Shown here: positions 2,347 through 46,365 of the stretch, in pieces | Layout: the number at the start of each line of letters is the position of its first letter | Numbering within the stretch: the first letter of the stretch is position 1 | NCBI RefSeq assembly: GCF_964355755.1 | Contig: NC_092676.1 | Coordinates: 17,528,288 to 17,592,287 of the forward strand | DNA from: Antedon mediterranea | Lineage: Eukaryota > Echinodermata > Crinoidea > Comatulida > Antedonidae | Reading direction: 5' to 3' | DNA length: 64,000 nucleotides | The notes under the pieces: model-generated | The model's database searches: none | Told to the model about the DNA's origin: nothing | What the model saw: only the letters and a program-made list of their open reading frames with translations | Made by a program: the position numbers and the translations under genes

Positions 2347-4132
2347 ATTGAAGTAACACTAGGAGAAAATGTTATATCTGTCAAATTATCAAAGTCCTGA
2401 TTTAAAAGTTCACTGAAATAAACATTAATAATGGTAATTATATTGTTAAACAAAAAATCCTCTTATAAACAAAAAATCATAGAATATATAGACTTATTCT
2501 TTTAAAAAATCCACATCTTAACCATTTAAAAATGCATTAATTTCCAGTATCTCGGGGTGGTTGAGAGTTAGCCAGTTAATTAATGTAAACAAATATACAT
2601 ATAAAAACTAAGGTGTAAAAAACTGTTTGAATGAGAAATGCTGTTCGTGTATAAATGTATGAAAATGGTGTTACATATGTCTATTAGTAAGCTACATGGT
2701 AACTGTTTATTTGTAATTATCAGCATTTCTACAGACTTAAAGTACCTTCACCCTTTTTCCATAATGTTTTTTCATATTTAACAAAATGGCACAGTCTTTG
2801 ACGTGAATGTAGTTTAATTGAGTAAATTGGCATGCATTTCTTACACTTATTCTTATCTCTAGTGGATTCAAAGGTCTTGATATAACTATTAGGAGTTAAT
2901 TGTACCCTGATCTAATCATGGACAATTTATTATATTATGTGAAAGGTCTAGGTTTATCTTGATAATAATATTGAACTTAAAATGTCAATCTTCACATTAT
3001 ATTGAGTCACTAAATGGTTTCAAAGGTCTTGAAACACACAATACAATACTTTTATAATATAATAATATATAATAGTACCAATATATAATTGCAACATGAC
3101 CAGTTATAAAACCCTTCATACACTAAATGTATAACTAACATTTACATTTTTTCTATTGACTTATTTGATATGAACCTTTTGGCAGTAAGATAATTACTAA
3201 TTTATCTTTTTGTTTTCATCTTCTTTAGTAAAATCGTGTTATCTACTTACACTGTAGTTGCGGATGAGCAATCTACCGTCTGTGTGATAGAATCACATGT
3301 GCATCCACCACAAGTATTGGAACTGTATGTAGTCGATGATTTTCCATACCCTGTATTCCCATAGCTATTTGTGTTATCTGACCATAGCCCTGTAAACATA
3401 TCCGTTCCTGGCACAAATGATATTATTAAAAGTCAGTTATAGTAAAAAGATTATAATCATGCTCGTTGATATTACCCTATAACCACCGGTAAGGTGCACC
3501 ATATGAAAGGTTTTAGAACAGATAAAAAGCCATACAAAATCACAACGTGTGTGTGGTTAATTACTCCATGGACTAAGCCTATATGCATTAAATGAGTAAA
3601 GATTTAGTTGAGAAAAGAATACAGAAAATATATACATTATTACTTCTAGTCTTGAAAGGGATTAAATAGAGAGAAGAACGACTAAAGAATTCGATGTTTT
3701 ATTGAATTCTTTTATTGGCTTTAACTGTACTTTATTATCTATACATTTAACTTATTTAATGAATACATTTGCGATTACAAATTAATAATATTCCAGAATA
3801 ACCCATCCAGACTCTTCATTAGAAAGAGGAAATATTAGATTAATATGGTTGTAGAACAGGAGTTGAGTAGAGTAGTACCCAGTAGAATATGAAAGAAGCA
3901 TCAACATACAATACAATTTTGACTTTGAATTTGAATTTTGAATTTGTTGACTTGTTAAGTTATTTAAATTTCATTGCCTACCTGTTTCATATTCAGGATC
4001 TAAGCCACCTTCTGTGTTAGGATATCGATCATTCCAATAGTTTGCACCATCCCAGACACTACTAACTTTACCAACATAACTTATTATTACAGCTAGTACA
4101 ATAAAAACAATTTTGGTTTTCATTTTTTTCAT
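2347..4132 (-). CDS. 5' end of a tandem paralog of the giant LRR/thrombospondin mosaic gene (partial)
   Basis: Three coding exons match exons 1-3 of the large gene further right in length, phase and sequence: 3982-4132, 3251-3407 (157 bp in both genes) and 2347-2412 (66 bp in both genes). The first encodes a hydrophobic signal peptide. Translation may begin at 4132 or at an in-frame ATG three codons later (4123). The second encodes a Tyr/Gly/Ser-rich stretch and an LRRNT cap with Cys-x2-Cys-x-Cys and VDCS. I count about 41 of 52 residues shared with the large gene's exon 2. The third is a first LRR ending in SPSVTS. I found no match to exon 4 between 1 and 2346, a span filled with transposon-like repeats. 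The gene therefore continues off the window, has an enlarged intron 3, or is truncated. Its orientation matches the large gene, so it is a head-to-tail tandem copy lying downstream. Confidence 0.75.
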
Positions 4133-8638: not shown

Positions 8639-11148
8639 TCACAATTCTGAATGATCATAATACAAGCTTCGTCTTCGTCTTCTTCGTGCGTCAGGATACG
8701 TAACTTGGAACCGTGCTTGATCTAATGAACTGGAGACAAATAATGCACTACCCTTCACAACACCATGGTGACCGTATAGACCTTGATCTAGTATCAAAGT
8801 TGATCCTAAAAGAATAAAGTGATTTATTGTGTTTGTTTATGTTTTCCACATTCTAAAGTTCTGAACATACGGGGTGTACCGCAAACTGTATATTACATTA
8901 TTATTTTTCCCCAAAATATAATTATTAATAATATCATTATTGGTATCTGCTGATGTTTTTTAACGACATATGAATTCGTACTGTACTTTACTCATTTGAA
9001 AAATCGCATAGAAATAGCAGCATTCTTTCCAAGATACAAATTAACATCATAGGATTCTTCTGATGAAGACATGTGTAACGTTTCGAAAATACAAGGTATG
9101 TTGAATTGTGTGTTGTAATGCTGTAAGTTCGTTTAAAAAACATTTTATATTTTTACCAGTATGTATGAACTTTCACTCGAAAGATACAACATATTAAAAA
9201 CATACCTTCTTCTTCATTGTCGAGTGAATAGTGAGCTTCCAGCAGTTTCTTATGTCTTTGTCGCTCTAACCCTGCTAATTCCAAATGCTCGTTTATTTCA
9301 CTGTCAATTAAAGCCAGTCCCCAGATCCTTATCTGTAATAGTGAAACCTTGACAATAAATTTCATTATAATAATGATTTCCAAAAAAAAAAATAGTTTGA
9401 CTGAGTATTTATTATATTTAGTATTTCATTGAAAACTGATTAAGACTTACCTCATCCATAATTCCATTAAAAAAAGTAGAATTATCTCGCCCTAAGTACA
9501 ACATGGTTTCATTTTCAGAATATGATGTCTTTAAAGAAAATATTATAAACAAAAAATAAAAGTATGAATAATACTGTAATATGAATTGTAAGATGTTTAA
9601 ATGTCATTTCTATTTAAAGATATATTGTATCATAAGAAAATTACAAATTAAGATTAATAAAAAAAGACTTTTAATAGGCTATTCAGTAGTTTTTATCAAG
9701 TTAATAACTATCACTAAAATCATTTTTTAATTCTATTATGTGATATTAAAATGACATATTCAACAACATCTAAACATTTTTTTGTTTTAGGACAATCCCA
9801 ATCAAACAAACAATGAAGGAAACTAACAGGAAAGTAAAACGACCCGTAGGAAGATCAAGAAATAACTGGATGAATCAAATAAAGAAAGACTTACAAGGAA
9901 ATGTAGACACTAACACAATAACAAACCCTCCCGCTATAAACAGACAAAAATGGAGAAAAAAATTGGGGAAAGCGTAATGTCGGAAGACGGAAAACGTTAA
10001 GAAGAGAAAAGGACAATGTATATCTTTAACATTATAACACAATGAAAAGACAGATCAAATCAACTAGGAACGTATACTCAGAACCGATAGTATAAAATGT
10101 AACGGTAAAAGGTAATTTTTCAATTACTGATGGCCCTGGAATTATTAAAGAATACATATTGTTCTTTCGTTTGTTGAAAATATGGCTTACCCATGTGACA
10201 GGACTAATATTTTCAAGAAAAGCCTCTGTGCCTGACGTGGTTCCATTTAGAAATAACGACAACTCATGATCTATAAGAAAACAAAGACATTTCTAAGATT
10301 TGTAATTAATGCTATAATCTTGTAATATTGCATTACTGTATAAGTACAGGTAAATACTGGACTACAGAGTACAGTACGTAGTTGTACCTGCATAAACTTA
10401 CTTTGTGCATCATATCTCATTGCAACATGTGTCCAAACATTTTCTCCAATTACTGTTGCTCCATCCGATAAAACAGTGCCTCCAAGTTGAGCAACAGTTT
10501 TTCTGTAAAAAAAAAAGATAAGACAGTATCCAGACTTTGATTATGTTATAAGCATTAATTGTATCATTCAGTTTTTCTGTCTATTTATCCCATACTGTTT
10601 TCATTGCTGCTGTTAGATAAATTTTAAGATAAGATAAATTTATTGAACGAACGCTTTTGTATCAGCGGCACACGTTTATAAGACGGTGCGTTCATTTACA
10701 AGGCAATGTAAAAACAAAAAGAAAAGTATCAAAAAATAACATTTAAGTCTTAACTAAGAAGCGAATTATACAAGTAAAATGAAATTAGTAAAAACAAGGT
10801 AATCTTACATATCGAACAATACTTAACCTATATGATGGAGTTAATGTTATTATCTATTTATTATCAGTATTATTAATATTTTCAAGTTTTAAGCGAATAT
10901 ATTATCATTATTATTACTAAAAAAATATATATATATATATATAATTGCTAATTGATTTATTATACTGTTATTATTAAAATAAATGCAACTTTTATATGAT
11001 TATTTGTTCTTATTATATTTAATATTAATAGTTATTTGTAATTTAATTAAATGTGATACAATTTTTATTATACTATTTAGTCTTATTTTTAGTACTGTAT
11101 TATTTATTTATTTTATTTAGATTTAGGTTACATTATATAATTTTGAAG

Positions 11149-11184
<36 letters not shown>

Positions 11185-14100
11185 TATAAAAATATAATAT
11201 ATTATTGAATTAGATAAATGGTAAAATAATGTTAGTAGATAATATGGTGGGCGGTAAATATTTATATATTATATATTAAGTGTAGTCTTTCTATGTCTCC
11301 ATGCAGCAGTTAAGTATTGTTTACAGTGATAGTCTACAATTTCACCGACTAGATGGTACGCTCGCTTCGCTCGCGTACCATCTAGGTCGTGCCCACAGAT
11401 GGTTCTCGAATACACAGTAATTTCAGCGTAACAAAACTGGCGATTTCAAATGTACGTACCGCAGGACTATAGGCCTATACATTGTCGTTTACAGAAACGA
11501 ATAAATAGACACGATGATTTATGTAGTCAACTAAAATTAGCACCCTGGGAATTACTTCCGAAGGAGAAACTTATCACAAAATGAGTCCAAGTTTTTGATT
11601 TGAACTCATTTAAAGAAACCCAATTTGTGTTTTGTATGTAACATTAGGGTTGAGGGATGGGAAAGCGGATAGTTACAAAGAGGAACAATTTTTAAATATA
11701 TTCTTTATCCACTCAGTAACGAAATATTTTTTTCATGTTTTATAGGCCTATAAATAATATACCTCTAAATACAGTAAAACATTTGCGATTTAATACTTTT
11801 TTTATTTTATTTATTTATTTATTTATTTATTTTAAATATTCATTGTACACTAATTTTCCCCGTGTATGGCAAGAGATTCCTAATTATATTAGAGAACATT
11901 CTTTATTTAGTTTAGTTAAAACTGTCACTGTCATAATCGATTGAAATATTAAAGTACCATGTCACGATACACCACTACGACGTTTATATTTGGTAATTAT
12001 TAATTAATACAAACGTTGAGAAAGAACTGTCAGTATAAAGTTTATTTGTATATAATAATGTGTTTATATATCTAACAGTAGAGCCTATCCACAATCTCGC
12101 AAGTTTATTCTCAAAGGGCCCATATATTTACCTACCGTATGTGTTAAACCAAGGGCTCATAAATTTACCTACAGTACTTGTGTTAAACCAAACTCTGGCA
12201 GACTGAGAGATTGGGATGTTCCATTCATCGCAAATCAATAGATTTGTATAATCGTATATTAAATCTATCAAAATAGTATTTTTTAAAGAAAATCGGCCTG
12301 TCTTCAACATTATGATGGTGTACTCTAGCTGTTCAACCGGTTTTCAGCTATTAAAAACAATTATCGTAGGAGGAGATAGGAAAATGCGAAGCCTCCTCGC
12401 ATTTTTGTGGCGGGTATTTTTCAAGATGGACATCCATTAGACAGTGTATACCACGATCGGAAAACACCCCTATTTGGGGCAAATCTTGGAACCTAAATTC
12501 GTTTTAACCGTCAATAACTTATTATCTAACTTAATTTAATTAGTAAACAGGGTTACATCAGGTGGTTAAAATCAGTACCGAAAGTACGAACCAACTTTAT
12601 ATACCATCGAGTAAAAATTCTAGAAGTAAGGCGCGATTTACCGAATTTTGCCCTTACGTAAATTTATATATAGACTAGATGGTACGCTCGCTTCGCTCGC
12701 GTACCATCTAGGTCGTGCCCACATGGTTCTCGAATACATAGTAATTTCAGCGTAAAAAAACAGGCGATTTCAAAATGTAGGCCTACGTACCGCATGACTA
12801 TAAAACATTTATTTATGTATTTATGTAGTCAACCAAAATTAGCACCGTGCGAATTACTTCCAAAAGAGAAACTTCTCACAAAATGAGTTCAAATGTTTCA
12901 TTTGGACTCATTTAAACAAACCCAATTTGTATTTTGTATCTAACATTATTGAGGGTTGGGGTTTTTTTTTTAATAGGCCTGTAAATAACATAACACTAAA
13001 TAGAGTAAAACATTTCCGATTTAATAACTGTTAAAATTGTCACTGTCATAGTCGATTGAAATAGTAAAGTACATGTAACGATACACCACCACGACGTTTA
13101 TATTTTTTTGTAATTATTAATTAATACAAACGTTGAGAAGCAACTGTCAGTAATAAAGTATTATATTATTATGTGTTTATAATCTAAAAGTAGGGGCTAC
13201 CCACACTCACAGTAATAAAGTTTATTAGTATATTTGTTTATATTATAATAAACAGTAGGCCTACCAACGCACACAATAAGAAATTTGCGATTCAAATGGC
13301 TATCAAAAGTGGTTAATACCTATCAAAAGTGGTTAATACCTATTTACAGTATTGTATAGCTTTACAATACTATTTATGTTTATTCTCAAAGGGCCCATAA
13401 ATTGACCTACTTGTGTTAAATCATGGAGGTATGCAAGCATGGTTAAACCAAATAATTTGGAATGTTCCATTCATCGCAAATCAATACATTTGTATAAACG
13501 TATATTAAATCTATCAAAATAGTATTTTTTAAAGAAAATCGGCCTGTCTTCAACATTATGATACTCTACTCGAGCTGTTCAACCGGTTTTCAGCTATTAA
13601 AAACAATTATCGTAGGAGGAGATAGGAAAATGCAAAGTATCCTCGTATTATTGTGTACAGGTATTTTTCATGAGGACATCCATTAGACAGTGTATACCAC
13701 GATCGGAAAACACCCCTATTTGGGGCAAATGGTTGAACCTAAATTCGTTTTAATCGTCAATAACTAATTATCTAACTAAATTTAATTAGTATACAGGGTT
13801 ACATCAGGTGGTTAAAATCAGTACCGAGATTATAACCAACTTTATATACCATCGAGTACACATTCTAGAAATAACGCGCGATTTACCGAATTTTGCCCTT
13901 ACGTAAATTTATATATAGATTCTCTCAAATGGAAATTCTAAATAAAGGTCATCAAGTAAAATATGATGTTGGTATTCGATTGTACCACTTCTAAAATTCT
14001 CCCAGAATGTATCATAACCACAATACAATAAATCCATTTTTAGTAAGTTAAAATGTGTTTCTCTTACATTTTTAAGGTTTGAACATTCAAGTAGAAAATG

Positions 14101-14648
14101 GTCTGTAGTTTCAATTAACTGATTGTTGCATAGCTTGCAAAAACCAGTCTCATTTTCTGACCATGTATTTTTTCTACCTTCTAAATCAAGAGAGTTAGAC
14201 CTCGCTTTAAACTTTAAACTAATGGAATCAAAATTCACCATATCAAACATGTATGTCTCTGCTTTAGGTTCATGTTTATATTATTATATTACATGTCGTT
14301 ACTTTCATTATCTTTGCTATGTTATGTTCTGATCACTTATAAATGTTGTATTTACTCAAGCATGTTGTAAATTCCATGTTTCCAACTCTGCTCGTCACAT
14401 ATGACATCAAATAAATTTATAAATTGTAACAAATCCTTTTGTATGATGTATTAACTTCTTACCCATTTTCAATAAAGAAACAAAGGTCGCTGTTTAGTGT
14501 ACAGATAACTGGCATTTTGGTTGATGGATAACCAGCTGGAAGATTAACCCATGCCTCCAATGTAAAACTATTAGACACTCCAAGATTGGTTATGCTATTT
14601 AAAATTACATAGTCATCGATGCCATCAAAGTATAAGGCTTGGTTTATT
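8639..14648 (-). CDS. Giant gene exons 63-68: LamG-like jelly-roll domain and Arg-rich C-terminus
   Basis: Exons: 14463-14648, 10402-10502, 10191-10270, 9451-9528, 9206-9332, 8639-8805. Residues about 2677-2868 show a concanavalin/LamG-like pattern: [13 protein letters not shown], then [40 protein letters not shown] and FNGIMDE. These are the marker strands of the LamGL fold. The next exon is helical and charged ([20 protein letters not shown]). The last ends with six arginines followed by SLYYDHSEL-stop. The Arg run could be a proprotein-convertase site. Intron 63 (10503-14462) is unusually long because it holds tandem repeats and LINE pieces. Confidence 0.85.
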
Positions 14649-17600
14649 CTAGAAGACAAATAAAATAAAAGAATCAGACAAACTAACCTCATTTATGTTT
14701 GCATCCAACATAAAAGGACTTGATTCTATAATTATGATCAACAATACCAACCTATCTGCACATCTGTATGAAAGCTTCGAAAAGATAACATCCGGTTGAG
14801 CATACACCATGACCCCTAAGCGACCTCCTACATAAGTGGTATCATAGATATCACCAGAATCTGTTAGAGTGGTTTCCTCTTGTTTAATCAAAACTCTTTA
14901 AAATGTTAAAATGATTATAAAATATCGTTAATTCTTTCTTTTATATTATATACATTGCAGGTCCATACCCATCCATACACCATAAGTTGGATGAGCTACG
15001 AACATTTTTAAATGATGAAAATTGAAAATAATGCAATATCAACGACATTCTGTTTTCAATATTAATTTTTCTGAATATGTAGAATGGATTTACTCTGCAT
15101 AAAATGTATGCACAAGTGTTTTTCTTAGACAGCCTAGGCAACATCCGAATGCTCGCAGCTAATTGACGAGGATTTTACTTCGGTTGTTTCTCTAGATTTA
15201 CAACAAAGGGAGAAAGAAATTAACGGAAATTAAATATTGTTTTACATACTATTCCCTGGTTCTAAATACCTGATGAGACCTATGGAAGGTCTGTGTGTGA
15301 GTTGCCAGCGATATGATGTTTCATGTTCCCAGCCTCTCATCTCTGGGTCATGCCATAACAACTCCACCTCATTATCAGTAGTGTAGGAGTACCAAATTGC
15401 ATCGGAGAGGGTACCAGAAGGCCCAGATGATGATGCCACTTTCTATAAAAAATAAAACCACTACTGTACCATACAACTGTTTTTTCTTTTTTTTCTCTCT
15501 CTCCTTTAAGAAATTCTACTAAAATTTCTAATTTGATGATGATTTGTATTTAAGTAATCACATAAAACTTGATTGCACTTAAACAAAACAAATACATGCC
15601 ATGACCAGACGACTTTCAGCGGGTCAATTATTATCACACAATATTCAAATTAATCTATTGATTAATCTATATCTCTTAGCCCAAGTACTTACTTTAATCT
15701 GAATGCCTTTTACAGCAGCTTTATAACTTGGATTATTCAAATTTGCATGTTTCCACATGACAAGGTAGAATTTGCGGTTGCTTTGGTAACCAAAAACAAA
15801 CCCCATATAGCTATCGCCATTTTTATTATTCACGTACATTGTCCCCGAATAATCAACAGCTCCAACACGGTCAGATCCAATAAGCATGGTTGGCATCTCA
15901 GTGGCAATCATTTGTTGAGCTTCTTTTCCCTAAAACGAATTTAGACAATTTGTTAAAAGTCATTTAACAAAATATATCTCAAATAGTAGGAAACAATTTA
16001 GGGCTTCATGAATAGTTTTGAAGAGGTTTTATAAAGACCAGTTAGAGGAGAATTGACTGTTTTACTCTTTTTTAAATGTTAAGACATATATTAGGCCTAC
16101 TAAACTTACATCATTTCTGACAGTCCATTCAGGATCTGCAGCATTTACAATACTGTCAAGGTTTACAGTGATGTGGTTCTCAAAGCTTGTACTCTGATAT
16201 TTATATACTTTCATGCAGTTATCTTCTTCATTAATGACACCATCTCCATCATAATCATCTTGGCAGGCATCACCAAGACCATCACCATTGCTATCAGTTT
16301 GGTTTGCGTTCATGTATAAAGGGCAGTTATCATCTGAATTACTTATACCATCACCATCTTTGTCACCGTCACACATATTACCTTTAAGATATAATTATTT
16401 AAAATATACAACTGATATTACTCTTGTTAAAGGTGTCTTTTACTACATTACATTTGTATTGGGTTTCTTTGACATATCAATAAATGTTTATACCAAATGC
16501 AAAGTATGACTCACCTATGCCATCTAAATCTCTGTCAGATTGGTCTGGGTTCGGTACAGTACCACAATTATCAAATTCATTGATTACACCATCTCCGTCA
16601 CTAGAATACAGAGAATGAAAATTAGTTTAAGTATCTTTAATAAGAATAAATCAAAGACGTTTTAAATTAAATGTGTCAAATGATATAGAGTTGAAATATG
16701 TGTTATCCATCAGCAGCTTAACTAGCATATATATATAACATTCAACATGAACTATTATAATTTTGTTTCATTGACTTTTTTTCAAGAATTCTGAAAAAGG
16801 GCACTTTCTGAATAATCAGGAATTAATGTAAAAATCTTCACGTAGATTCATGGTATACATTTCTCGATTGATGTTTCTACAAACACCCTAGCTAAATATC
16901 AAAATCTGTCGTATTTCCCAATACAATCTCCACTTACAAATCTTTATCATTGGCACCAACTACATCACATAAATCTCCAAAGCCATTTTGATCTGTGTCT
17001 GTTTGAGTAGAATCAGAGGTTCCGATGCAGTTATCACAATCATCCCCAACACCATCACTATCCTCATCTTCCTGACCACTATTTGAAATGAAAGGGCAGT
17101 TATCAGAACCATCAACAACACCTGTAAAAAAATAATATCAAAGTCGGGTGTTTTTTTTTTCAAATTAAATGGTTTAGTTTGAAGTATCCCAAAAATCGTG
17201 GAAAATTCAAGCAAAGAATTCCAGAAAGTTTGGCAGTGATGATGGGGTTTTTATAGTTTATACATTTCTACTGTAGGTTTGATTTAATAAGTTTAAAAAG
17301 TTTTCAAACAAACAAATAAAGTTAGGTTAACCATAAAACTATTGAGTAGATAGACTTACCATCACCATCATCGTCGGTATCACATGCATCACCTTCTCCA
17401 TCTTCATTGGTATCTAACTGGTCACTATTGGCATCACTGGGACAGTTGTCACAAACGTCACCAACACCATCTGAATCTGAGTCACTTTGGTCAATATTTG
17501 CCACAAACTGGCAATTGTCCTATAATAAAATAAATACTATTTACAAAATAAAATACTTCGGCATTCTAGTTGGCTTTCTGAATTCCGTTTTTTAAGTCTA

Positions 17601-35600: not shown

Positions 35601-38600
35601 GGTATTCCGTAAATGAAAGCTGCAACTGTATGTTGGACACTGCTATTATACCCACCATATACATTTTATTGCATTCAACATGAATAATATTGAGAACATT
35701 TAGGAAAATATTTCAAAGGATAAAATAACTTCTTTGGCCGCTGAAGTGCACTCTACTTTCAGGTTTCGGTTGAGCAACATTTATACTGTACCTACTGCGC
35801 TTCACAACAATCAATAATATTAAAGGATACAAAATTAACAAATGACATGGATACACTTGGGTGTATTGAAAAAGAATGTCTTTAACTCACAGAAATCGAA
35901 GACTGGTACATCCATCTAGAGCTGTATCTGGAATCTCATCGATATTGTTACTTCCAAGATCAAGAATTTGTAGATTACTCATGTTACGAAATGGATTTTC
36001 ATGTAGAAAGTGAAATTGATTTGATTGTAAATTTCTGCAATGAAAATAAATTTACATATTTAAAATATTTTCTGCTAATTATATCTTCCACTGATAATAA
36101 ATTTTTTTCCAATGTTCTAACATAACCGATCTTGTGTATGACATATCCACAGAATATATATTTTGCATAACATATATTTTTGAATCTAAATTATGTACCT
36201 TTAAGTTGTTAAACAAGTTGTATCAAAGTATATTAACAGAAGAAACCAATAAATTATAAATTATTTTCAATAAACTCCACATATTTATAGAATATTACTT
36301 ACATTGAAGTCAACTCTAATGGAAATGTACCATCTTCTATTGAGAGTATGACATTTGATTGAAGGGCTATTGTACGCAAGGTGGATAGACTTGAGAATGT
36401 ATCGGCCAATAAAAACGCAATCTTGTTATTATTGAGTTCTCTGTGTACATCATGTTTAAAGAAAAATGTAAAAACAAAAATAAATAATATAATTCAAAAA
36501 TTGATTTTATTTTTCAATAAAACTTTGATCTGCGCCAGTGTAATGATAATATTAACACGATGATAAGTATTATATATATATTTATGTTGCATTATGCATA
36601 AAGGTTAACATTGTTATCTAAATATATTCTTTTGATTTTATAGGCTTTCTTGTTTCTAGTTCATTTGTGTCCTTACCTTCATTTTAATTTAAAGTTTCTT
36701 GGTGTGTGAAAGGATCAGGTACCGTAAGATTGATTTTTAATTATGTAATACCTCTTTTAGTTTTGTATTTTAATGTGTTTTTCTTTACTGTATATTCATG
36801 GATGCAACACAATCTAGATAAAGGACCCCATCAATATCTCCATCTAAAAGTAAGATTTCTTTGGTTCCTGAACCCAACCCTTTGTGTATGCTTCCTCTAG
36901 AAGGTAAACTTATCAAATAAATCATATGACAACATTTTGAAGGAAACAATCCCAGTACAAAACATCAACTAACAATTATAACAATTTGCTGATTAAGTAA
37001 AGGTAAAGTTTGAAATATTGGGATTTAATGTAATTAACAAAGAAATATGAAATGTCATTGAAGCAGTTCCATTTATTAATAAAATGCATGTGCATTATAC
37101 AATGTTATAAAAGTTAAAATATTTTACAACTACACATTTGAAATATAATGAATACTATCATTTTTAGAAAATAATTACCAAAGGGTATTAGGTGGTTTAA
37201 TTCTGAAATTATTCGGTTGTTTAGGCGTATTGTGATTTTTTATATATTAAGTATACATATTCGTTTTATTATAAATCAAAGAGCTGCATAAGCAGGACAT
37301 AGAAATAAATCAACATTCTTTTTAATATATATTAAAATTTTGGTATTTTAACTTTAATGTAATTTTTTTTTTGGATTAATACATTTTGACTTACACAATG
37401 GTTTTAAATACATTAGTAAGAAAATGAGTTGAAAATACATAAATTTCGCATTATTATTATTATTATAAACATTCTAACAAAGGACGAAATAAAGTGGATT
37501 GAACCTACATCAGGAAAAAATGTATGTTTGAGCAACAGTGACAATTTTACTCAGATTATTCTTAGTAGGAATTACTTACAATGTATTGATGTGTGGTAAA
37601 TGACTTCCATTTTTAACAGCATCAGGAACATATTTAAAACGATTATATCCGAGGTATCTGTAAATAAAATAGTGAAATTTAGTCTTGGGTTCTATTTTTC
37701 AATAATTAATAAAAAGAGGCATATACATGAAGGTACTTATCATAAAATGTATTTTTAAATTGTATGTTTGATGTCACTCAGAAAGTATTAGTACGTAGCA
37801 CTCTCACATATAGGTACAAATCATTTTAAATAAACGTAAATTAAATTGTTTTTATAGGAACAATGACAATGCTTAGTTCTTTGTTTTTACATCCTGTATT
37901 ACTTGTTTGTTTTTATGTCGTCATCGTCGTCATCGTCATCATGCACATTATTCAATGATGTTGGCTATTTAAACCTCACCAAAGAGATTCAGCTATTGGT
38001 ACTTTCTCATCAATCCACAACATGGGTTTTGTGGAGAATACACCAGAATACATTCAGTTAACATGACAAAGAAAACATAAAAAGATCGATAAGTAAAATG
38101 TACTCAAAATCACTTACAACATCTGCAGGTTTGATAGACATGAAAATGATTCTGTTTCCATAGTAGTCTCATCAAGTAAATTTGACTGAAGATCAAGAAT
38201 TTTGAGGGATTGTAAATTACACATGTCATCCTCGCGTATTCCTTTTATATAATTGTTAGATAAATCTCTGCAACACAAATAGAACTGTGATGATGAATAT
38301 TGTTTACACGTTTAATAATAAGATTATATTAAGAATAGTATTAACATTGAAATACTGGTATTGATAGTTCAGAATACTTACAAAGATGTGACACTTGACA
38401 ACATTAGAAAAGGATCATGTAAATTGAACCTGTACTTGTAGTATGTTAGAGCAGATGAAGTGAATGCATCCTCAGCATACAATGTTATGTTCCTGATAAA
38501 ATTGTGATCCAAATACCTGTTAAACGAATAATAACTTATTTAACTTTCGAGATTATTTCATAGTATTGAATAAAACCCATGTATGAAAGGCCTCCATTCA

Positions 38601-41600
38601 TTACCACGTTATTCATATATAGTTTACAACCAAATATATTTATACTGTCCCATCATGAAAGAACCTCTCAACTGCATAAAGGAAAGTTGTCAACAAAACG
38701 TGTTATTTTTTAGCTCTTCTCGTGTGTAGATAATAGTTTTTTTTTTATTTTCACACCTTTTAACAGTATATATATGTACGCTTTATTGTGTATACATTTT
38801 AATAAAATTACTCACTATAATATTAGATATGTCAGTTTTACTGTTCTTTCATGACATTCTTGGTCAATTAAACACAAGAAAATCATGACATATCTCAAAT
38901 TATTGTACACATTTCGTGTAATCATTTAGTTTTATTCTCTAAAACTGTTTCATGAGATTGCTAATACAGTACTTACTCTCCACAAATACCAGTATTTCAA
39001 TGTTAATACTATTCTTAATATAATCTTATTATTAAACGTGTAAACAATATTCATCATCACAGTTCTATTTGTGTTGCAGAGATTTATCTAACAATTATAT
39101 AAAAGGAATACGCGAGGATGACATGTGTAATTTACAATCCCTCAAAATTCTTGATCTTCAGTCAAATTTACTTGATGAGACTACTATGGAAACAGAATCA
39201 TTTTCATGTCTATCAAACCTGCAGATGTTGTAAGTGATTTTGAGTACATTTTACTTATCGATCTTTTTATGTTTTCTTTGTCATGTTAACTGAATGTATT
39301 CTGGTGTATTCTCCACAAAACCCATGTTGTGGATTGATGAGAAAGTACCAATAGCTGAATCTCTTTGGTGAGGTTTAAATAGCCAACATCATTGAATAAT
39401 GTGCATGATGACGATGACGACGATGACGACATAAAAACAAACAAGTAATACAGGATGTAAAAACAAAGAACTAAGCATTGTCATTGTTCCTATAAAAACA
39501 ATTTAATTTACGTTTATTTAAAATGATTTGTACCTATATGTGAGAGTGCTACGTACTAATACTTTCTGAGTGACATCAAACATACAATTTAAAAATACAT
39601 TTTATGATAAGTACCTTCATGTATATGCCTCTTTTTATTAATTATTGAAAAATAGAACCCAAGACTAAATTTCACTATTTTATTTACAGATACCTCGGAT
39701 ATAATCGTTTTAAATATGTTCCTGATGCTGTTAAAAATGGAAGTCATTTACCACACATCAATACATTGTAAGTAATTCCTACTAAGAATAATCTGAGTAA
39801 AATTGTCACTGTTGCTCAAACATACATTTTTTGTATAGGATTAGTGGAGAAATCTGAAATGTACCCTTTATTAAATATGCTATTCACATGAAACTTACAC
39901 GAAATTTAATTTTGGGTAAGATTCTTCGGATAACACTGGATGTGGAAAAGTGGTTAGCGCGTTATCACTAAGCCATAAATTGACAAGTTCATCACCAATT
40001 CCTTGGAAAGCATCATACATTATTACAGATAGCTTGTTTGCTGTATCATCTTTCTGGGAATGTAGAATCCTGCAATAAAAATACTCAAAAAGCTATACCA
40101 AAGGATTGTGTTACTCATGTCTACTGATAGGAAATGTATGTAAATAAATTCCAAATAACAATACAACTCATTGAAAAAGATTTGAACAAATCCATTTGGT
40201 AATTAATAGAAAGTTCCCACAGTCTTGTTTAAAAACCGTAATTATATAATAAACTAGGCATATTGATGTTTTTTTCAAGTAATTAAACAGATTAGAAATG
40301 TAGTAGGTCTATTTTAAGTTTATACTTTAGTTTAAAGATGTATTGTCCCTTGGAACACACAAAAATGAAGGTCAAAATATTAAATTTAAAAATGGCCATA
40401 TGAAAGTAATATTCAAAGTTATTCACCTTAAGTCGATAATTCGAGCCAAAAACAACAATTTTACGTAATTAACAGCTAAATTAATTTGATTACATTTCGT
40501 CTGGATAATCGTCCCGAGCAAAAGTAAAGAAAGATTTCAAACCATGAGTATACATTATGCATGATGCTAATTAGGATTGTTTACAACTCGTCACGGATGA
40601 GAAGGTGTTTTCACACAGAACGCGAGGAAGTTTTATGATTATGCATACAGAGTAGCCAAATAAGCGCGTTGCATTATGAGATATGTTTTGAAAGAAAACT
40701 TTGACTGGAAGTCAAAGGTTATTTTTGAACCAAAAAACGTTTTTTCGACTCGTTTTTGGTGAAAATTAATAACTATTATGATACTTCAAATTGACCCACT
40801 TTTTTTTAAAATCTTTTTTTTTTTGGAATTTGACAAAGGGACAATACATCTTTAAGTGGTATGTTTATTCTCAACAATGCAATTTGAAGTAAACAGAAAT
40901 GACTTACAAAGTTTGCAATTTTGGTAGGTTTGTAAAATACTTTGATCCGATGGTAGTGACCTGGTTTTGATTCAGTCCTCTGTAAGTTAACAATTAAAGA
41001 CATATTATAATGAATCATAGACTGGAAAGAATAATTATACTATCAATAAACATTTACAATAAAACCGAAATAAATAATAACATAAACGGCAACCCCTTTC
41101 AAATGGAACATGTCTACCCGAACTTATTAAAGTTCTAAATTTCATTTTAAAACATCAATAACCTAATTATAATATCTTTTATCTTTATTTCTTCTACTAA
41201 AATAAAAATTTAAATGTTAAAACACAACATTTGTGGTCTTTTTCCATTATTTGTACTGTAAATAATATTTAATGTATACATCTTTTTCTATAGGTACCTT
41301 TACAGGTGGTCTTTCATACTTTGAATTTTCAGCCATTACAAAATACACTAATGGTATAAAAATCATACTCAAACTAAAAGGATGCAGATGATGATGGTTT
41401 TTTATCTATACGTACATTTATCTCATAAAAGAAAACGTGGAAAAACTTACAAATGTAAGAGTTCTGGAATGTTAGCAAATACATTTGGATTAACACTTGA
41501 TAACTTGTTTTTATGAAGTTCTCTGCAGAAATTGAAAGTATTTAATGTTGAGGCCAGAGCATAGCATATAAGTTACGTAAGTAACGTTTTACTACTAATA

Positions 41601-44600
41601 ACAACAATATATACTGTAGGAATACCATCATTTTTATATGAGAGTAATGGTGAGAAGCAGCGAAGAAAATGAATATGATTACACTGATTTACTGTATTAT
41701 TTTTAGCAAATGTCATGTTTTTAAATTTCAACTTATTTCAGCTTTGGCTGACAACTTGCAATATGATTTCTTATACCTGAATAAATAAATATATTGTGAA
41801 ATATAGTGATATATCACATGGTTTTTAAATACATTTGTAATTAGTGAAACCATTTTCACACTAAAATATCAACCTGCAAGGCAGATTCAAGACGCTAGAA
41901 TATGAAACCACAACAGGTCATTTCTGTTAATGGTTTAATTATATAGATATTTTCTTTATTTATTTAACAACATCTTTATACAGGATAACACAATCCGGTT
42001 TTGCATTGTGGTTCATGTCTTAACTACAATAAATCGGAGAGAAAATTATAGTTTTGTGAAAAAAATGTGATCAATATTTAGCTTTGAATAAAGCAATTGT
42101 TAATGAATATTTAATTTCAGTTGGTAGGTTATTCCATATTTTAGCGACTGCAACATTGAACAAGTTCATCTTACTATATAAAGAAATATATATATAAATA
42201 TACTTACAAAATCTTAAGAGACTTGAGCTGAGAGAACGATTTTGGAGCTATATAGTTGATCAAATTATTGCTAAGATTGCTGTAAAATCAGAAAATGATA
42301 TATTTTATTAGACATTATAATAATAATAATAATGAAAGATTATACAGACGTCCATATCTCCGTATATTATAATAATTATATAAATATATAATATATTAAA
42401 CAATGTAAGCACCGTATTGTGTCTTCCCTCTCTTAGGTCGTTTATTTGCAAATCATTTTTGTTATGTAATCATACATAAAGCTACCTAAAAACAACAAAC
42501 ACATTAATGACAGATAGTTTTCAATTAATCTTCGTTCACACCAGACACAAAACAGCAAATGTAACAGTTATACTGTATACAATATAAAAACATAGAGAGA
42601 TCTTTATTTTATAATCTATACTCAACTCGGCAATTTTCAGTGACGTCTTTGTCGTTCACCATTCCCTCTATTAGGGACTATTTCCAAATAATAATTATAG
42701 CCATTTAAATACATGCTATGTTTTTTTTCTGATTTCAACCAAATACATAGCCCTACTGTACATTAAAAATTTAGTAAATTCTCTGAGGTTCTGGTTTCAT
42801 CTTAATATACTTAATATTTGATACACTGGTTTAACTTGTGATCAACAACTTTATATGGAAGGTTAGGTAGTATTACACCAATTGTGTTGTTGTTAAACAT
42901 AGTGTAACTTACAGGTGTTGGACATTGGATTCCGCCAATGCCTCCATATTTCTCTTGGAAATACTTTTCAGCCGATTTTGATCAATAGACATGAAAAGCA
43001 GATTATTCATCTTGGTTACAGCATCTGTTGGAAACTTAGTCATCTGATTCATACTAAGGCCTCTAAATTCAATTTAAACAAATGATTGATCGTATTTATT
43101 CGTTATTGTTTCACTGTTATGAGCTCGTGTGTTGTGCCCTACAGTACATTGATAGAATTTTTGAACGGTACTATGTCTAAGGGAAAAGTGCGGGAAATAT
43201 TGTCCTTTAGTTTTAGTTTGGAGACAAGAAACATCCTTTTCTTGCTTGTTTGTGGTACTAGATGTAACAATTATTAGTACAACATATGAATTAAACGCTT
43301 CAATCTATTTGAACTTTTTAAGAATCTGAAAATGTCTAATATATAGAATCCTCAACATTTGTATTTATTATTCCGAGTTATTAGCAACTTATTTCTTCAT
43401 AGTTATGAAAGAGAACAATATAAAGCAAGACCAAGGTAATAAAATAATTTAAACTCTTGTATAACTTTAAAAGCTTTTTACTTACAAAAAACTAATATTG
43501 GAGTTCGAGAAAAATCCTCTAGGCAGTCTGTCAATCTTATTATTCACCAGGTTTCTGTATACATTTTAAACAATAATACAAGTTAACTATTAAACAGAAC
43601 TAATCAAAAATATTATAGAAAGCAAAGGTCCGTACGAACCTAAAAAGAGGTTTGCCAGTAATTAAATCAAGTTTGTATACTTTTCTCTTTGATTTCGATT
43701 TTGCTAGTTACTAGTAGTTAAGTAGAGCCTCTTTAAAAGGTACACCTTCGGAACACAAGTGTCCTCTTAAATAGGGGTTTTCCTTTAAAATAGGTGTATC
43801 TCAAAGAGGGCTTCAATAAGGTCGTTTTCTGTATTTTTATTTGTGTACACATATTACTCAAGAAATAAATGTCTAAATCAGATCCATTGCTAATGATAAT
43901 CAAGTTATTTTTTGTGTTTGTTTTGCAAATTAAGCCTGTTAACTGTTGATATCATTTCACCGTAGCAAACACTCAATTGTGTTCCTTACCTAACCCCAGT
44001 GTATGTGATACCTTTTATTAGGAATAGGCACATAATTATAATAAGAATGAGAATGTTAATGATGATTATGACGACGACATAAACAATTGTCTTACACATG
44101 CGTCAATGAAGCTGGCAATCCTTTGAAGGTAAATGTTGAATTAAATTTCAGACGACTTTCAGAAATCTCACTATAAAAATGTAAAATATAATAAACATAA
44201 ATAAGTGCATCACAATCAACAGTATTATCTATTTATCTTTCTAAAGGTCTAGGCTTTTAGGCTCTTTCTCTTGGATCTTTCAAAACTTGGTTGTAAATTA
44301 CATAATTGATATTTAATATTCAATACGATAAATAATTTGTTTTAATTATGACTAATGATATGAATTATAAGAAACACAAACAAGCGTTTAATAATGAGTC
44401 TAAATCACCAAATCAATAGAGAGGTAGGCCTAACATTGAGAAATCTGCATGTTAGATTGCTCTCTGGTCAGATTTGAAAGCTTTTTTAGATGGTACTCGA
44501 GCATCTTACCACAAAAGTAGCTCGAAAACAATAGTATAACAAAACGATTCATGATATACAGTTCATTACGGTAAAAAAACAAATATAACCAACTTACAGG

Positions 44601-46365
44601 CGTTTCAGATTCGTGCATCTCGAAACATCTGGGAATACTGCTAAATCAGTACGATGAATAATTCTACATAGTTTATAAAAATAATTTTACTTACAAATCA
44701 AGACATTTTTTAATTGTTATTTTTCGAAATAAACTTATTATGGGTATATTAAGCCAGTTTTATTTTTAAAGTCTAAATAGTGCAAGTACTTACAGTTTCT
44801 CCAAGTTGGTTAGTAGAGAAAATGTTCCGTCATAAATGTATTTAAGGTTACCAATGATAGTACTGCAACAGATTAGAAAATTACATTAGAATTAACAATC
44901 ACTGTGTATTTTTTTTAGTGGATCGAAGATTTGCAAGATTACAAGAATTGTTCATATGTTCCTTCACTAGACTAAGCTGTTCCATTTAATTGAATTAATC
45001 AGGTGAGGTGAAGCATAATGGGTACATACGACGTGGTAGCACCTACTGGAGCAATTGTTACTAGGCCAATTTACAGTTTCTGGTAGATGGGCTGCACTTT
45101 TTTGGAACTTATTTAATTTTTTTTAGTTTACACAATTCTATTTCTATAGAATTTTATAAAAAAATGTTATTCAATATTTAATTTATTGTACTTACATTGA
45201 AGTCACACTTGGAGAAAATGTTATATCTGTCAAATTATCAAAGTTCTGATTTACAAGTTTACTGAAATTGAATGAACATTAAATAAACTTATAAATGAAA
45301 TAGGAACATTAAAAAGTCAATCTAAAACAAATTAATGTATCATATTGTATATAGATATAAAATACATACAAAACATGGGATGGTTTGTCTATCTGGTGGT
45401 GTTAACGTAATAATAATGATAATGATAACAGCAGCAGCAATAGCAGAAACAACAACAGCAACAGAAACAAAAAAGCAGTAGCAACAACAACAACAACAAT
45501 AACAATAACAATAAATACGGTACCATATCAGTGAATAAGATTACATAACTACACCAGCCTACCGATCAAGCGAAGAACGGTGGATATAGTATGTCATTTC
45601 AGCAGCTCGAACCGAAAGCTTGGCACTTCATTTTAATTTATACTTGAAATGTATATAGACTGAACATTTCAAGCAGATTCACGGGTATCTGTTTTTAAAC
45701 AGATACCCAGTTTAAAAACTGTTAAACTACTATTACTACTACTATACATACATCTATTTTATTATTTGATATCGTCTATTTATCGAGATGAATGAACTGA
45801 ATATCATTCTTCTCACCATTTTGCCTAAATTCATGACTCAATATAGATTCAACATTCTTGAAAAAAACAATAATTTATAAAACTCAGAGATCTTTAGAAA
45901 TGAATTTCTATCATTTCTGTTTTACTTACACTGTATTCGCGGACGAGCAATCTACCGTCCGTGTTATAGAATCGCAGGTACATCCACTACATGTATTGGA
46001 GCTGTATGTAGCCGTTGATTTTCCATAACCCGTGTCTCCATAGCTATAGTACTTATATGACCATAACCCTGTAAACATTTCAGTTCCTGTAAAAAAATAA
46101 ATAAAAATAGCTACACAAAATTCCATCGAACAATAATTCGAATAAACACATAAGCACCAACATACACAAATACACAGTATAGAAATAAAAACACTAAGAA
46201 TGAACTTCCGTTGTGTCATTGCCTACCTGTTTCATATTCAGGATCTAAGCCACCTTCTTCTTTTGGATATCGATTATTCCAATAGTCTGCACCATCCCAA
46301 TATTGTCCTCTAACTTCACAAATACAACTTATTATTACAGCTAGTACAACAGAAACAACGTTCAT
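8639..46365 (-). CDS. Giant secreted mosaic protein: LRR / FN3 / fibro-slime / cadherin / F5-8C / EGF / thrombospondin C-half / LamG (68 coding exons)
   Basis: I chained 68 exons using GT donors, AG acceptors and phase. Their lengths sum to 8,766 bases, divisible by three, giving 2,921 residues from the ATG at 46363-46365 to the TGA at 8639-8641 with no internal stop. Domains by rough residue: signal peptide 1-20; Tyr/Trp/Gly-rich 21-75; LRRNT about 76-98; about 37 LRRs 99-995; LRRCT 996-1058; FN3-like 1059-1188; fibro-slime 1189-1400; two cadherin repeats 1405-1665; F5/8C 1694-1846; Cys-rich 1849-2018; EGF-like 2019-2221; thrombospondin type 3 2222-2455; thrombospondin C-terminal 2455-2676; LamG-like 2677-2868; tail 2869-2921. 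No membrane helix is apparent after the signal peptide, so the product is probably extracellular. Calcium binding is expected from the cadherin, EGF and type-3 repeats. A role in adhesion, matrix or recognition is inference. Exon coordinates are in the block entries below. Isoforms and UTR exons cannot be seen. Confidence 0.88.
9793..10005 (+). mobile_element. RTE-like LINE 3' fragment inside an intron of the giant gene
   Basis: On the plus strand this encodes the tail of the same family seen at 5073-5800, with words equivalent to [30 protein letters not shown] and a closing MSEDGKR. It lies antisense in intron 65. It is heavily 5'-truncated and carries a few substitutions and a frame disruption near the end. 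Confidence 0.8.
10900..11215. repeat. AT-rich low-complexity tract with poly(A) and (TA)n
   Basis: A (TA)n run lies near 10926-10942. A stretch of about 30 adenines lies near 11150-11180, followed by TATATATAA. The poly(A) may be the tail of a retroposed sequence, but the upstream DNA shows no recognisable coding remnant. Confidence 0.5.
11349..12674. repeat. 1.33-kb repeat unit, copy 1 (with palindromic hairpin at its start)
   Basis: The unit begins with a 13-bp stem (CTAGATGGTACGC at 11349-11361 and its complement at 11373-11385) around an 11-base loop. It ends just before the same hairpin recurs at 12675. Shared blocks include CGTGCCCACA, GGTTCTCGAATAC, AAACTTCTCACAAAATGAG-type words, GTCGATTGAAAT, CGTAGGAGGAGATAGG, CACGATCGGAAAACACCCC and TTGCCCTTACGTAAATTT. 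Copy 1 contains about 130 bases (11793-11925) missing from copy 2. A third, partial copy lies at 46555-47262. Both copies sit in intron 63. Confidence 0.75.
11840..11945 (+). mobile_element. Possible LINE reverse-transcriptase C-terminal remnant
   Basis: The plus-strand frame reads [20 protein letters not shown] followed by a lysine and a stop within about twenty residues. The W-x-x-IPxxIRxxxSLxxx(F/L) pattern is common at the C-terminus of CR1/L2/Jockey-type reverse transcriptases. The fragment is short and lies in the part of repeat copy 1 that copy 2 lacks. Confidence 0.35.
12675..13919. repeat. 1.25-kb repeat unit, copy 2 of the tandem pair
   Basis: It starts with the same 37-base palindromic block at 12675-12711, 1,326 bases after copy 1. 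It follows copy 1 block for block, apart from the missing segment, point differences and a small internal tandem duplication (CTATCAAAAGTGGTTAATAC twice at 13301-13340). It ends TTGCCCTTACGTAAATTT, then runs into the LINE fragment at 13909-14250. Confidence 0.75.
13909..14250 (-). mobile_element. LINE fragment with a zinc-knuckle (zf-RVT-type) C-terminus
   Basis: An uninterrupted frame of 113 residues carries a [19 protein letters not shown] segment, that is Cys-x2-Cys-x8-His-x4-Cys. This is the pattern of the zinc-binding region after the reverse transcriptase of several LINE clades. It ends FPFERIYI-stop. No catalytic RT motif is present. It is in intron 63 on the same strand as the host gene, directly next to repeat copy 2. 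Confidence 0.65.
14752..16381 (-). CDS. Giant gene exons 59-62: thrombospondin C-terminal domain
   Basis: Exons: 16110-16381 (its 3' part), 15693-15929, 15270-15442, 14752-14895. Residues about 2455-2676 match the lectin-like C-terminal globe of thrombospondins/COMP. Markers are [42 protein letters not shown] followed by [44 protein letters not shown] and FSKLSYRC. The four exons are phase-consistent, and the domain looks complete. In thrombospondins it normally ends the protein. Here a LamG-like domain follows. Confidence 0.92.
16110..17940 (-). CDS. Giant gene exons 55-59: thrombospondin type-3 calcium-binding repeats
   Basis: Exons: 17833-17940, 17360-17519, 16938-17121, 16515-16600, and the 5' part of 16110-16381. 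The translation is a run of Asp-rich loops such as [54 protein letters not shown] and [14 protein letters not shown]. This is the DxDxDGxxDxxDNCP signature of type-3 repeats, which wrap calcium and disulfides around the C-terminal globe. It covers residues about 2222-2455. Confidence 0.93.
18135..18280 (+). mobile_element. MITE-like element of the CTCTGTCTACAC family
   Basis: It starts AAGCTCTGTCTACACTCTC and includes ATATGGTAGTGATAT twice and CATCATGTCCATATGGAC. It closes with AGTTTGATAGTGTAGA, which inversely resembles the start. A related copy lies in reverse orientation at about 58455-58550. It sits in the intron between exons 54 and 55. Confidence 0.55.
18536..20260 (-). CDS. Giant gene exons 50-54: EGF-like modules
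   Basis: Exons: 20124-20260, 19618-19758, 19206-19280, 18913-19062, 18536-18640. Exons 51-54 are phase 0 on both sides. Residues about 2019-2221 are Cys-rich, with [12 protein letters not shown] followed by [19 protein letters not shown], the calcium-binding [28 protein letters not shown] and [12 protein letters not shown]. The order of EGF modules before type-3 repeats is that of thrombospondins. Confidence 0.9.
20540..21803 (-). CDS. Giant gene exons 46-49: cysteine-rich block (TNFR/ephrin-receptor-like spacing)
   Basis: Exons: 21640-21803, 21233-21295, 20892-20994, 20540-20719. Residues about 1849-2018 contain over twenty cysteines in CxxC pairs, for example [60 protein letters not shown] and CGVCKTC. 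The CxxCPxGxY motif is that of ephrin-receptor/TNFR-like Cys-rich repeats. I cannot assign a single family, and the block may be several short modules. Confidence 0.8.
21985..22803 (-). CDS. Giant gene exons 43-45: F5/8 type C (discoidin) domain
   Basis: Exons: 22666-22803, 22254-22423, 21985-22141. Residues about 1694-1846 read as a discoidin fold: [14 protein letters not shown], then [44 protein letters not shown], and [19 protein letters not shown] before the closing LEVRGC. The paired cysteines at its start and end are present. These domains bind glycans or phospholipids through loops at one end of the barrel. Confidence 0.92.
23068..25413 (-). CDS. Giant gene exons 38-42: two divergent cadherin repeats
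   Basis: Exons: 25182-25413 (3' part), 24723-24866, 24265-24434, 23445-23617, 23068-23285. The first repeat (residues about 1405-1565) contains YAITIDED, a long insert, [19 protein letters not shown] and the linker [10 protein letters not shown], matching the cadherin LDYE...DxND calcium sites. The second (about 1566-1665) has [18 protein letters not shown], then goes quickly to [14 protein letters not shown] and VNVTL. It lacks much of the middle of a normal repeat, so it is shortened. A segment before the F5/8C domain ([19 protein letters not shown]) is unassigned. Confidence 0.8.
23803..24262. mobile_element. MITE fragment (TTAAAGATGTATTGTCCC family) ending at a splice donor
   Basis: The left end TTTAAAGATGTATTGTCCC and the interior match the complete element at 40333-40855 over about 450 bases. 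Shared words include ATTAGGATTGTTTACAACTC, CATACAGAGTAGCC and AAGCGCGTTGCATTA. The match stops at TTAATAACT, where exon 40's donor (GTGAGTT on the minus strand) begins. The right terminal repeat is missing. Confidence 0.75.
25182..26812 (-). CDS. Giant gene exons 34-38: fibro-slime domain
   Basis: Exons: 26597-26812, 26227-26316, 25813-25985, 25509-25606, and the 5' part of 25182-25413. Residues about 1189-1400 show the fibro-slime order of motifs: [61 protein letters not shown] and [11 protein letters not shown] followed by KFYFEM. This family is known from slime-mould and bacterial surface proteins and scattered in other eukaryotes. In the usual DDDxWVFING strand the first acidic residues are replaced by Gly here. 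The domain is otherwise complete. Confidence 0.85.
27162..27804 (-). CDS. Giant gene exons 32-33: fibronectin type III-like domain
   Basis: Exons: 27684-27804 and 27162-27431. Residues about 1059-1160 follow LRRCT, with [19 protein letters not shown] (strands A-B), [29 protein letters not shown] and [13 protein letters not shown]. The W/Y spacing and the final YxIxT strand fit FN3. About 25 further residues form a linker into the fibro-slime domain. The assignment is by pattern only. Confidence 0.7.
27957..29235. repeat. 18-bp minisatellite with two unit types, in intron 31
   Basis: The core array (about 28370-29235, some 47 or more units) is built of CCACCTTCTAATAGTAAC (type A) and CCACTAATCTAATAGTAA (type B), both 18 bp. 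The left half alternates B-A, making a 36-bp higher-order unit. The right half is almost pure A. Degenerate units start near 27957. They are separated from the core by about 250 bases holding a roughly 75-bp direct duplication (28111 and 28188, each with GATGCAGCCG...AGGAGAT...GCATGTTGATC). One minus-strand frame reads a WVTIRR hexapeptide repeat, which is a by-product of unit length. Confidence 0.95.
29293..29480 (-). CDS. Giant gene exon 31: LRR C-terminal cap (LRRCT)
   Basis: The exon of 188 bases enters in phase 2 and leaves in phase 1, closing the run of phase-2 LRR exons. It encodes [19 protein letters not shown], then a segment with [12 protein letters not shown] and a final Cys. The four cysteines (CxC...C...C) and the leading half LRR are those of an LRRCT capping motif (residues about 996-1058). 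Confidence 0.88.
29914..45261 (-). CDS. Giant gene exons 3-30: about 37 leucine-rich repeats, one to three per exon, all phase 2
   Basis: Exons from 5' to 3': 45196-45261, 44794-44862, 44598-44663, 44096-44170, 43486-43554, 42913-43062, 42208-42279, 41451-41522, 40908-40979, 39899-40069, 38382-38516, 38118-38267, 37580-37657, 36303-36440, 35891-36034, 35178-35393, 34769-34840, 34524-34613, 33917-33988, 33541-33609, 32915-32986, 32609-32683, 32181-32249, 31480-31620, 31104-31175, 30651-30722, 30323-30388, 29914-29991. Each starts with the last base of one codon and ends with two bases of the next. Most are 66-78 bases (one repeat). Some are 135-171 (two) or 216 (three). Typical repeats read [19 protein letters not shown] and [18 protein letters not shown]. 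The LxxLxLxxNxIxxL frame is clear in most. Exons 3, 13 and 22 are the least regular. Confidence 0.88.
31760..31945 (+). mobile_element. Possible LINE 3' tail with TATGAC repeats
   Basis: The sequence ends AATAAAGATACTATGACTATGACTAT. A similar tail (ACAATAAAG...TGACTATGACTATG) closes the LINE end at 55550-55915. No coding remnant is clear here, so this is assigned by the tail only. Confidence 0.4.
37515..38362. repeat. 848-bp inverted duplication, arm 1 (original, holds exons 14 and 15)
   Basis: This arm contains LRR exons 14 (38118-38267) and 15 (37580-37657) and the intron between them in minus orientation. Its reverse complement recurs at 38985-39832 with equal length. I found no mismatch when reading the exons and most of the intron. 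The arms are separated by 622 bases (38363-38984) that hold exon 13 (38382-38516). Confidence 0.93.
38985..39832. repeat. 848-bp inverted duplication, arm 2 (flipped copy)
   Basis: This is the plus-strand copy of arm 1, lying in intron 12 between exons 12 (39899-40069) and 13. The boundaries are AATACCAGTATTT on the inner side and CATACATTTTTT on the outer side. Beyond both the sequences differ at once. Without this copy intron 12 would be about 530 bases, in line with its neighbours, so arm 2 is the inserted one. Confidence 0.93.
39080..39767 (+). pseudogene. Inverted copies of LRR exons 14 and 15
   Basis: The exon copies lie at 39080-39229 and 39690-39767 on the plus strand, with intact acceptors (TTGCAG, TTTACAG), donors (GTAAGT) and open frames. 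They encode the [13 protein letters not shown]- and [14 protein letters not shown]-type repeats. They are opposite to the gene and have no start codon, cap or partner exons nearby, so they are probably not expressed as protein. Their perfect state argues for recent origin. Confidence 0.8.
40333..40855. mobile_element. Complete MITE, TTAAAGATGTATTGTCCC family
   Basis: It starts TTAAAGATGTATTGTCCC and ends with its inverse, GGGACAATACATCTTTAA. The body is 523 bp and non-coding. Copies: a truncated one at 23803-24262 and a diverged one at 54697-55030. It sits in the intron between exons 11 and 12. Confidence 0.8.
43640..43830. repeat. Diverged interspersed repeat
   Basis: This stretch has CCTCTTTAAAAGGTACACC, GGAACACAAGTGTCCTCTT, AATAGGGGTTTTCCTTT and AATAGGTGTATCTCAAAGAGG, a chain of similar half-palindromic words in intron 7. 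It looks like part of an old DNA transposon, but both ends are unclear. Confidence 0.35.
45420..45515. repeat. CAG/CAA-rich microsatellite
   Basis: A run of imperfect AACAGCAGCAGCAATAGCAG and (CAA)n/(AATAAC)n repeats lies in the intron between exons 2 and 3. It is non-coding by position. Confidence 0.7.
45930..46365 (-). CDS. Giant gene exons 1-2: signal peptide, aromatic segment and LRRNT
   Basis: Exon 1 is 46227-46365 and exon 2 is 45930-46086. The start at 46365 gives a hydrophobic stretch ([12 protein letters not shown]) and a likely cleavage near residue 20. The mature N-terminus is rich in Tyr, Trp, Gly and acidic residues ([18 protein letters not shown]), then [15 protein letters not shown]. 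The LRRNT cap has [19 protein letters not shown]. Both exons are mirrored in the paralog at 3251-4132, which supports the start choice. Confidence 0.9.

Follow-up and report, generated by a model that had tools for sequence, protein, structure and literature searches.

A Tandem Pair of Probable Mega-Thrombospondin Genes in the Crinoid Antedon mediterranea

Results

Gene Model of Copy A and Neighboring Features

The window analyzed here is a stretch of 64,000 nt of genomic DNA from Antedon mediterranea (C7:17528288-17592287). It harbors a gene that we designate copy A and the first exons of a tandem neighbor, copy B or the twin. The features are as follows.

8639..46365, minus strand: copy A, most probably a mega-thrombospondin gene (spliced open frame, all introns GT-AG, twin conservation centered on exons)
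46227..46365, minus strand: exon 1 with the start codon and a hydrophobic N-terminus, putative signal peptide aa 1-46 (by eye)
29293..45261, minus strand: leucine-rich repeat (LRR) region, exons 3-31, about aa 99-1058 (Pfam LRR_8, E 1.5e-106)
28378..29233, no strand assigned: 18-bp minisatellite, 46.8 copies, 856 nt, within intron 31, which makes the stretch from the LRRs to the next module longer
27162..27804, minus strand: exons 32-33, aa 1059-1188, initially annotated as FN3 (label unproven)
25182..26812, minus strand: fibro-slime-like region, exons 34-38 (TIGR02148 match; wider extent by eye)
23068..24866, minus strand: cadherin repeats, exons 39-42 (PF00028, E 2.1e-15 in the shorter query)
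21985..22803, minus strand: F5/8 type C (discoidin) domain, exons 43-45 (PF00754, E 5.6e-23)
20540..21803, minus strand: Cys-rich region with an Ephrin_rec_like match, exons 46-49 (PF07699)
18536..20260, minus strand: EGF-like modules, exons 50-54 (EGF_3 and EGF_CA above cut-off; best stretches in exons 52-54)
16110..17940, minus strand: thrombospondin (TSP) type-3 repeats and start of TSP_C, exons 55-59 (PF02412, E 1.5e-50; 2RHP alignment)
14752..16381, minus strand: TSP_C L-lectin domain, exons 59-62 (PF05735, E 6e-75)
13912..14280, minus strand: probable retroelement fragment in intron 63 (zf-RVT, PF13966, E 1.1e-4, 23.3 bits, below the cut-off of 27.5)
8639..14648, minus strand: second ConA/LamG-like domain and C-terminal tail with RRRRRR, exons 63-68 (PF13385, E 4.1e-19)
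2347..4123, minus strand: exons 1-3 of copy B, which goes on past the left window edge to C7:17497108

In the curated spliced model, copy A runs from 46365 to 8639 on the minus strand and comprises 68 exons that splice into a single 2,921-residue open frame. The coding sequence of 8,766 nt has no internal stop, and GT-AG borders were present at 67/67 introns. Two automatic runs yielded 68 exons with 2,922 aa and 75 exons with 3,021 aa; both models contained some wrong exons and were dropped for that reason. They were replaced by a twin-guided curation: wherever the runs conflicted with each other or with the twin, splice sites that the twin shares were taken. The curation was independent of the exon count of the initial annotation (no fitting to 68), and it reproduced the start, end, strand, exon number and protein length given there.

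Three further open reading frames were observed in the window. One at 57124-57942 (plus strand) has a C2H2 zinc finger array, and one at 61231-61806 (plus strand) has a methyltransferase domain (Methyltransf_11, E 2.2e-10). The third, of 240 aa, lies between the twins at 5079-5798 (minus strand); by eye it resembles the terminal portion of a non-LTR reverse transcriptase, and it gave no Pfam match at E ≤ 0.001. Neither a tRNA nor an Rfam family at gathering score was found in the window.

Domain Modules along the Chain

The N-terminus is hydrophobic in both copies, as judged by eye, and secretion of copy A is predicted from this feature. No further strongly hydrophobic stretch was seen (no 19-mer past residue 60 with mean hydropathy > 1.6).

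The labels LRR, cadherin, F5/8C, EGF_3, EGF_CA, TSP_3, TSP_C and Laminin_G_3 all passed the Pfam cut-offs, in agreement with the modules annotated initially. Among the 29 LRR exons, 17 are 66-75 nt long, and all 29 start in phase 2. The last of them, exon 31, has cysteines that we take to be LRRCT-like. The LRR array was confirmed by LRR_8, but a loose regular expression counted 33 repeats instead of the roughly 37 annotated before. For the stretch behind the LRRs, no FN3 was found in Pfam (E ≤ 10), NCBIfam (E ≤ 0.1) or a PDB sequence search, whose six weak rows (E 0.018 to 2) comprised designed repeat proteins, haemophores and a coat protein. The FN3 label thus stays tentative.

The fibro-slime module was recovered in part. 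The TIGR02148 match (46 residues, about exons 35-36) is significant at E 5.9e-10, but its score of 39.5 bits is below the curated cut-off of 45 and it covers only profile positions 2-45 of 90. A search of the genome gave no fibro-slime match elsewhere, in a setting in which exon-split domains are easily missed, the controls were silent and the window's own copy was also unseen. PF00028 reached 48.8 bits (cut-off 28.8) with one stretch in the longer query, and three stretches appeared in the shorter query at a lax E ≤ 10. The cadherin region of copy A includes an RGD at aa 1645, which is also present in the twin. The outcome for the Cys-rich module depended on the query: Ephrin_rec_like passed its cut-off of 23.1 in the shorter query (25.6 bits) but failed in the longer one (19.2 bits).

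The Laminin_G_3 match lies directly behind TSP_C. At the very C-terminus (window 8639-8805), six arginines followed by SLYYDHSEL are identical in both copies and form a possible proprotein-convertase site.

A Tandem Twin Supports the Gene Model

Copy B is the tandem neighbor of copy A, just downstream on the same strand; it starts at window position 4123 and ends at C7:17497108. Automatic runs predicted 69 and 78 exons for it; after curation it has 68 exons and 2,912 residues. The two curated models have identical intron phases at 67/67 junctions. This agreement is partly a product of the method, since the twin guided the curation, while the open frames, the GT-AG sites and the ends of blastn matches are not.

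The proteins are identical at 2,537 of 2,909 aligned residues, with 81% identity over the first 1,100 columns of the alignment and 93% from column 2,300 onward. By the NG86 method dN was 0.068 and dS 0.290; the resulting dN/dS of about 0.23 shows that purifying selection acts on the twins. Blastn returned 62 colinear matches of at least 60 nt that span 66/68 exons; no such match was present for exons 20 and 21. Of the 124 match ends, 117 fall no more than 30 nt from an exon edge and 92 no more than 15 nt, and four matches cross an intron (introns 16, 44, 52 and 58).

The long introns 31 and 63 of copy A raise the question of whether two or three adjoining genes (an LRR gene, a modular thrombospondin gene and a LamG tail) were merged into one reading. 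Intron 31, between the LRRs and the module after them, has 1,488 nt and intron 63 has 3,960 nt, against a median of 315 nt in copy A; both corresponding introns of the twin contain AATAAA or ATTAAA words. Such words are expected in AT-rich DNA, and no signs of gene ends were seen at either intron in the genomic sequence. In copy B the same junctions measure 479 and 270 nt, with phases matching copy A, while in copy A the minisatellite and the probable retroelement piece lie within the extra length. Because both suspect junctions are ordinary short introns in the twin, a split into two genes is very unlikely and was rejected as a model. The joined domain order is, moreover, that of a published protein family, the mega-thrombospondins. 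A merger of separate genes is thus highly improbable, and we continue with one gene per copy.

Exons Are Alike and Introns Much Less So

At fourfold-degenerate sites, 870/1,061 (82%) were identical between the copies, counting codons whose first two bases agree. Introns were compared by a rough test, which covered the 61/67 introns shorter than 900 nt in both copies and used a single mismatched control for each. Identity over aligned columns was 74% for matched introns (9,240 columns) and 75% for mismatched ones (8,307 columns). The mean alignment scores were -81 and -97, respectively, and 34/61 introns scored above their own mismatched control, so that the matched introns, taken together, aligned scarcely better than mismatched ones. 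Intron 16 stood out with 87% identity, and the short introns 59, 58 and 44 also had positive scores.

Exons 16-17 together with intron 16 (window 36447-35884 versus twin -7816 to -8421) are unusually alike; dS was 0.015 for exon 16 and 0.092 for exon 17. Recent gene conversion around these exons is likely. Exon-limited conversion outside exons 16-17 is possible, and fast intron turnover would look similar. We consider it unlikely that rounds of exon-limited gene conversion (or strong synonymous constraint) have kept the exons alike while most introns became almost as different as unrelated introns are. If this were true, the twins would be an old, functionally paired mega-thrombospondin duo, perhaps matched adhesion partners, and real exon-limited conversion would make them a small example for studying what keeps tandem matrix genes similar.

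Thrombospondin Motifs and Canonical Relatives in the Same Genome

A TSP_C search of the 354-Mb genome (18 contigs, 16 candidates scored) yielded 14 exon-level matches, which by reading belong to four genes: copy A (3), copy B (3) and two canonical thrombospondin genes, one on contig C10 (4) and one on contig C11 (4), which are named here after their contigs. C10 has three type-1 repeats upstream (TSR search, 150/376 candidates scored). Within the C10 gene (L005 4614-4788, 5470-5660), a segment containing part of a TSP_C exon has a second copy close by with about 91% similarity, and short tandem repeats surround them.

The type-3 repeats and TSP_C of copy A are homologous to the solved structures of TSP-2, COMP and TSP-1. 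The segment from EGF to TSP_C aligns over its full length to thrombospondin-2 (2RHP, E 6.9e-146) and mostly to COMP. This likeness is what a lineage-specific canonical thrombospondin with a shuffled N-terminus would also show. Several results speak against such an origin and leave it very improbable. TSP_C identity is 42-45% between the copies and five canonical domains (C10, C11, TSP-1, TSP-2 and COMP; the first two are tblastn assemblies with small gaps), whereas these five are 54-83% identical among themselves. The DDD motif, present in all five, is replaced by GDS in both copies, and two separate canonical thrombospondins, C10 and C11, exist in the same genome. In a FastTree tree of the seven TSP_C domains the copies form a long branch near COMP-C11 with a support of 0.69, so the tree leaves membership unsettled. 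No LamG was found before TSP_C in copy A at E ≤ 0.01, where LRRs and the other modules lie instead. Canonical thrombospondins typically have an N-terminal LamG domain and a coiled coil ahead of EGF, although LamG is not found in every one of them.

At the RGD site of the canonical proteins both copies have LGD, and at the KGD site in type-3 repeat 6 both have IGN. In two cnidarian mega-thrombospondin models, the RGD site is PVG or VGD and the KGD site is IGD (PMC6526912). The IGD was thus not found in the copies; it is reported for the two modeled cnidarian proteins and is not part of the family definition.

Discussion

Probable Assignment to the Mega-Thrombospondins

Mega-thrombospondins are animal matrix proteins that were first presented as a family in 2019 (Shoemark et al. 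2019, PMC6526912). Their order is given there as a signal peptide, LRRs over about 1,000 residues, a central region with F5/8C and Cys-rich modules and one or more cadherin domains, EGF, type-3 repeats, TSP-C and a second ConA/LamG-like domain; a coiled-coil oligomerization domain does not belong to it. Members are reported from echinoderms, hemichordates, amphioxus, an ascidian, molluscs, cnidarians and ctenophores, and the proteins of Acanthaster, Ptychodera and Ciona have 2,889, 2,920 and 3,020 aa, respectively; Villosa and Branchiostoma floridae have two copies each. F5/8C and the GFR-type Cys-rich module are regarded as bilaterian additions, and FN3 is typical of bilaterian members but not universal (PMC6526912). 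The term itself was found in no other paper in a literature text search.

Copy A has about 1,000 aa of LRRs within residues 1-1058, a central cadherin region with the bilaterian F5/8C and Cys-rich modules, the EGF/type-3/TSP_C block and a second ConA-like domain. The initial annotation considered the domain order undescribed. This claim does not hold, because the order is that of the published definition, and a characterized protein with the same order thus exists in the mega-thrombospondin described in 2019 (PMC6526912). The view of one secreted protein of adhesive or matrix type fared better and is supported.

A truly undescribed architecture that merely resembles the family, for instance owing to the fibro-slime-like domain, is very improbable. 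The word fibro-slime is absent from the main text of the paper on the family (PMC6526912). A literature text search also found no paper that combines thrombospondin, leucine-rich repeat, cadherin, discoidin and fibro-slime. PA14 and fibro-slime are, on the other hand, related folds. The central region is described as variable between phyla, with PA14 at this place in the Hydra protein (PMC6526912), and the remaining defining modules match, the undetected FN3 excepted. We conclude that copy A is one of two tandem mega-thrombospondin genes, whose product is a secreted multi-adhesive protein, either of the matrix or associated with the cell surface (probability about 0.93). The claim of a new architecture is thereby corrected, and a complete, twin-validated pair of mega-thrombospondin genes is added.

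Proposed Function

The LRR solenoid may bind a protein partner, and the calcium-loaded type-3 repeats with the L-lectin domain may bind cell-surface receptors such as integrins. The cadherin, fibro-slime-like and F5/8C modules would give further contacts in between. The protein could in this way bridge cell surface and matrix in tissue patterning or regeneration. We regard such bridging, in which LRRs and TSP_C would engage from opposite ends, as somewhat favored. Functional knowledge comes from one paper on cnidarian proteins, which reports mega-thrombospondin expression in two cnidarians and a block of head regeneration upon silencing in Hydra (PMC6526912); the proposed bridging is in accord with this block. 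As DDD is lacking, retention probably occurs by a route other than that of canonical thrombospondins. Two mega-thrombospondins and two canonical thrombospondins in one genome allow an internal comparison for the loss of this retention motif.

Comparison with Known Systems

With canonical TSP-1, TSP-2 and COMP, the copies share EGF modules, type-3 repeats and TSP_C, as reflected in the full-length 2RHP alignment. They differ from these three proteins in a TSP_C identity of 42-44% and the lack of DDD, and copy A adds an LRR N-terminus and an extra C-terminal ConA-like domain. Sushi-thrombospondins also have an extra ConA-like domain after TSP_C, but copy A has over twice the length of 1,000-1,300 aa given for them (PMC6526912), and no sushi domain was matched in it by Pfam at E ≤ 0.01. 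The closest likeness is to the mega-thrombospondins: the LRRs, cadherin, F5/8C, Cys-rich, EGF, type-3, TSP_C and second ConA-like modules are all present in copy A, the length exceeds 2,700 aa, DDD is lost as reported for the family, and two copies occur in some species (PMC6526912). The copies differ from the described members in the fibro-slime-like match, in having no detectable FN3 and in the tandem arrangement shown here. Their LGD lies in an ungapped loop, whereas PVG of Hydra and VGD of Nematostella lie in extended loops of the published models, and their IGN takes the place of the IGD of the two modeled cnidarian proteins (PMC6526912).
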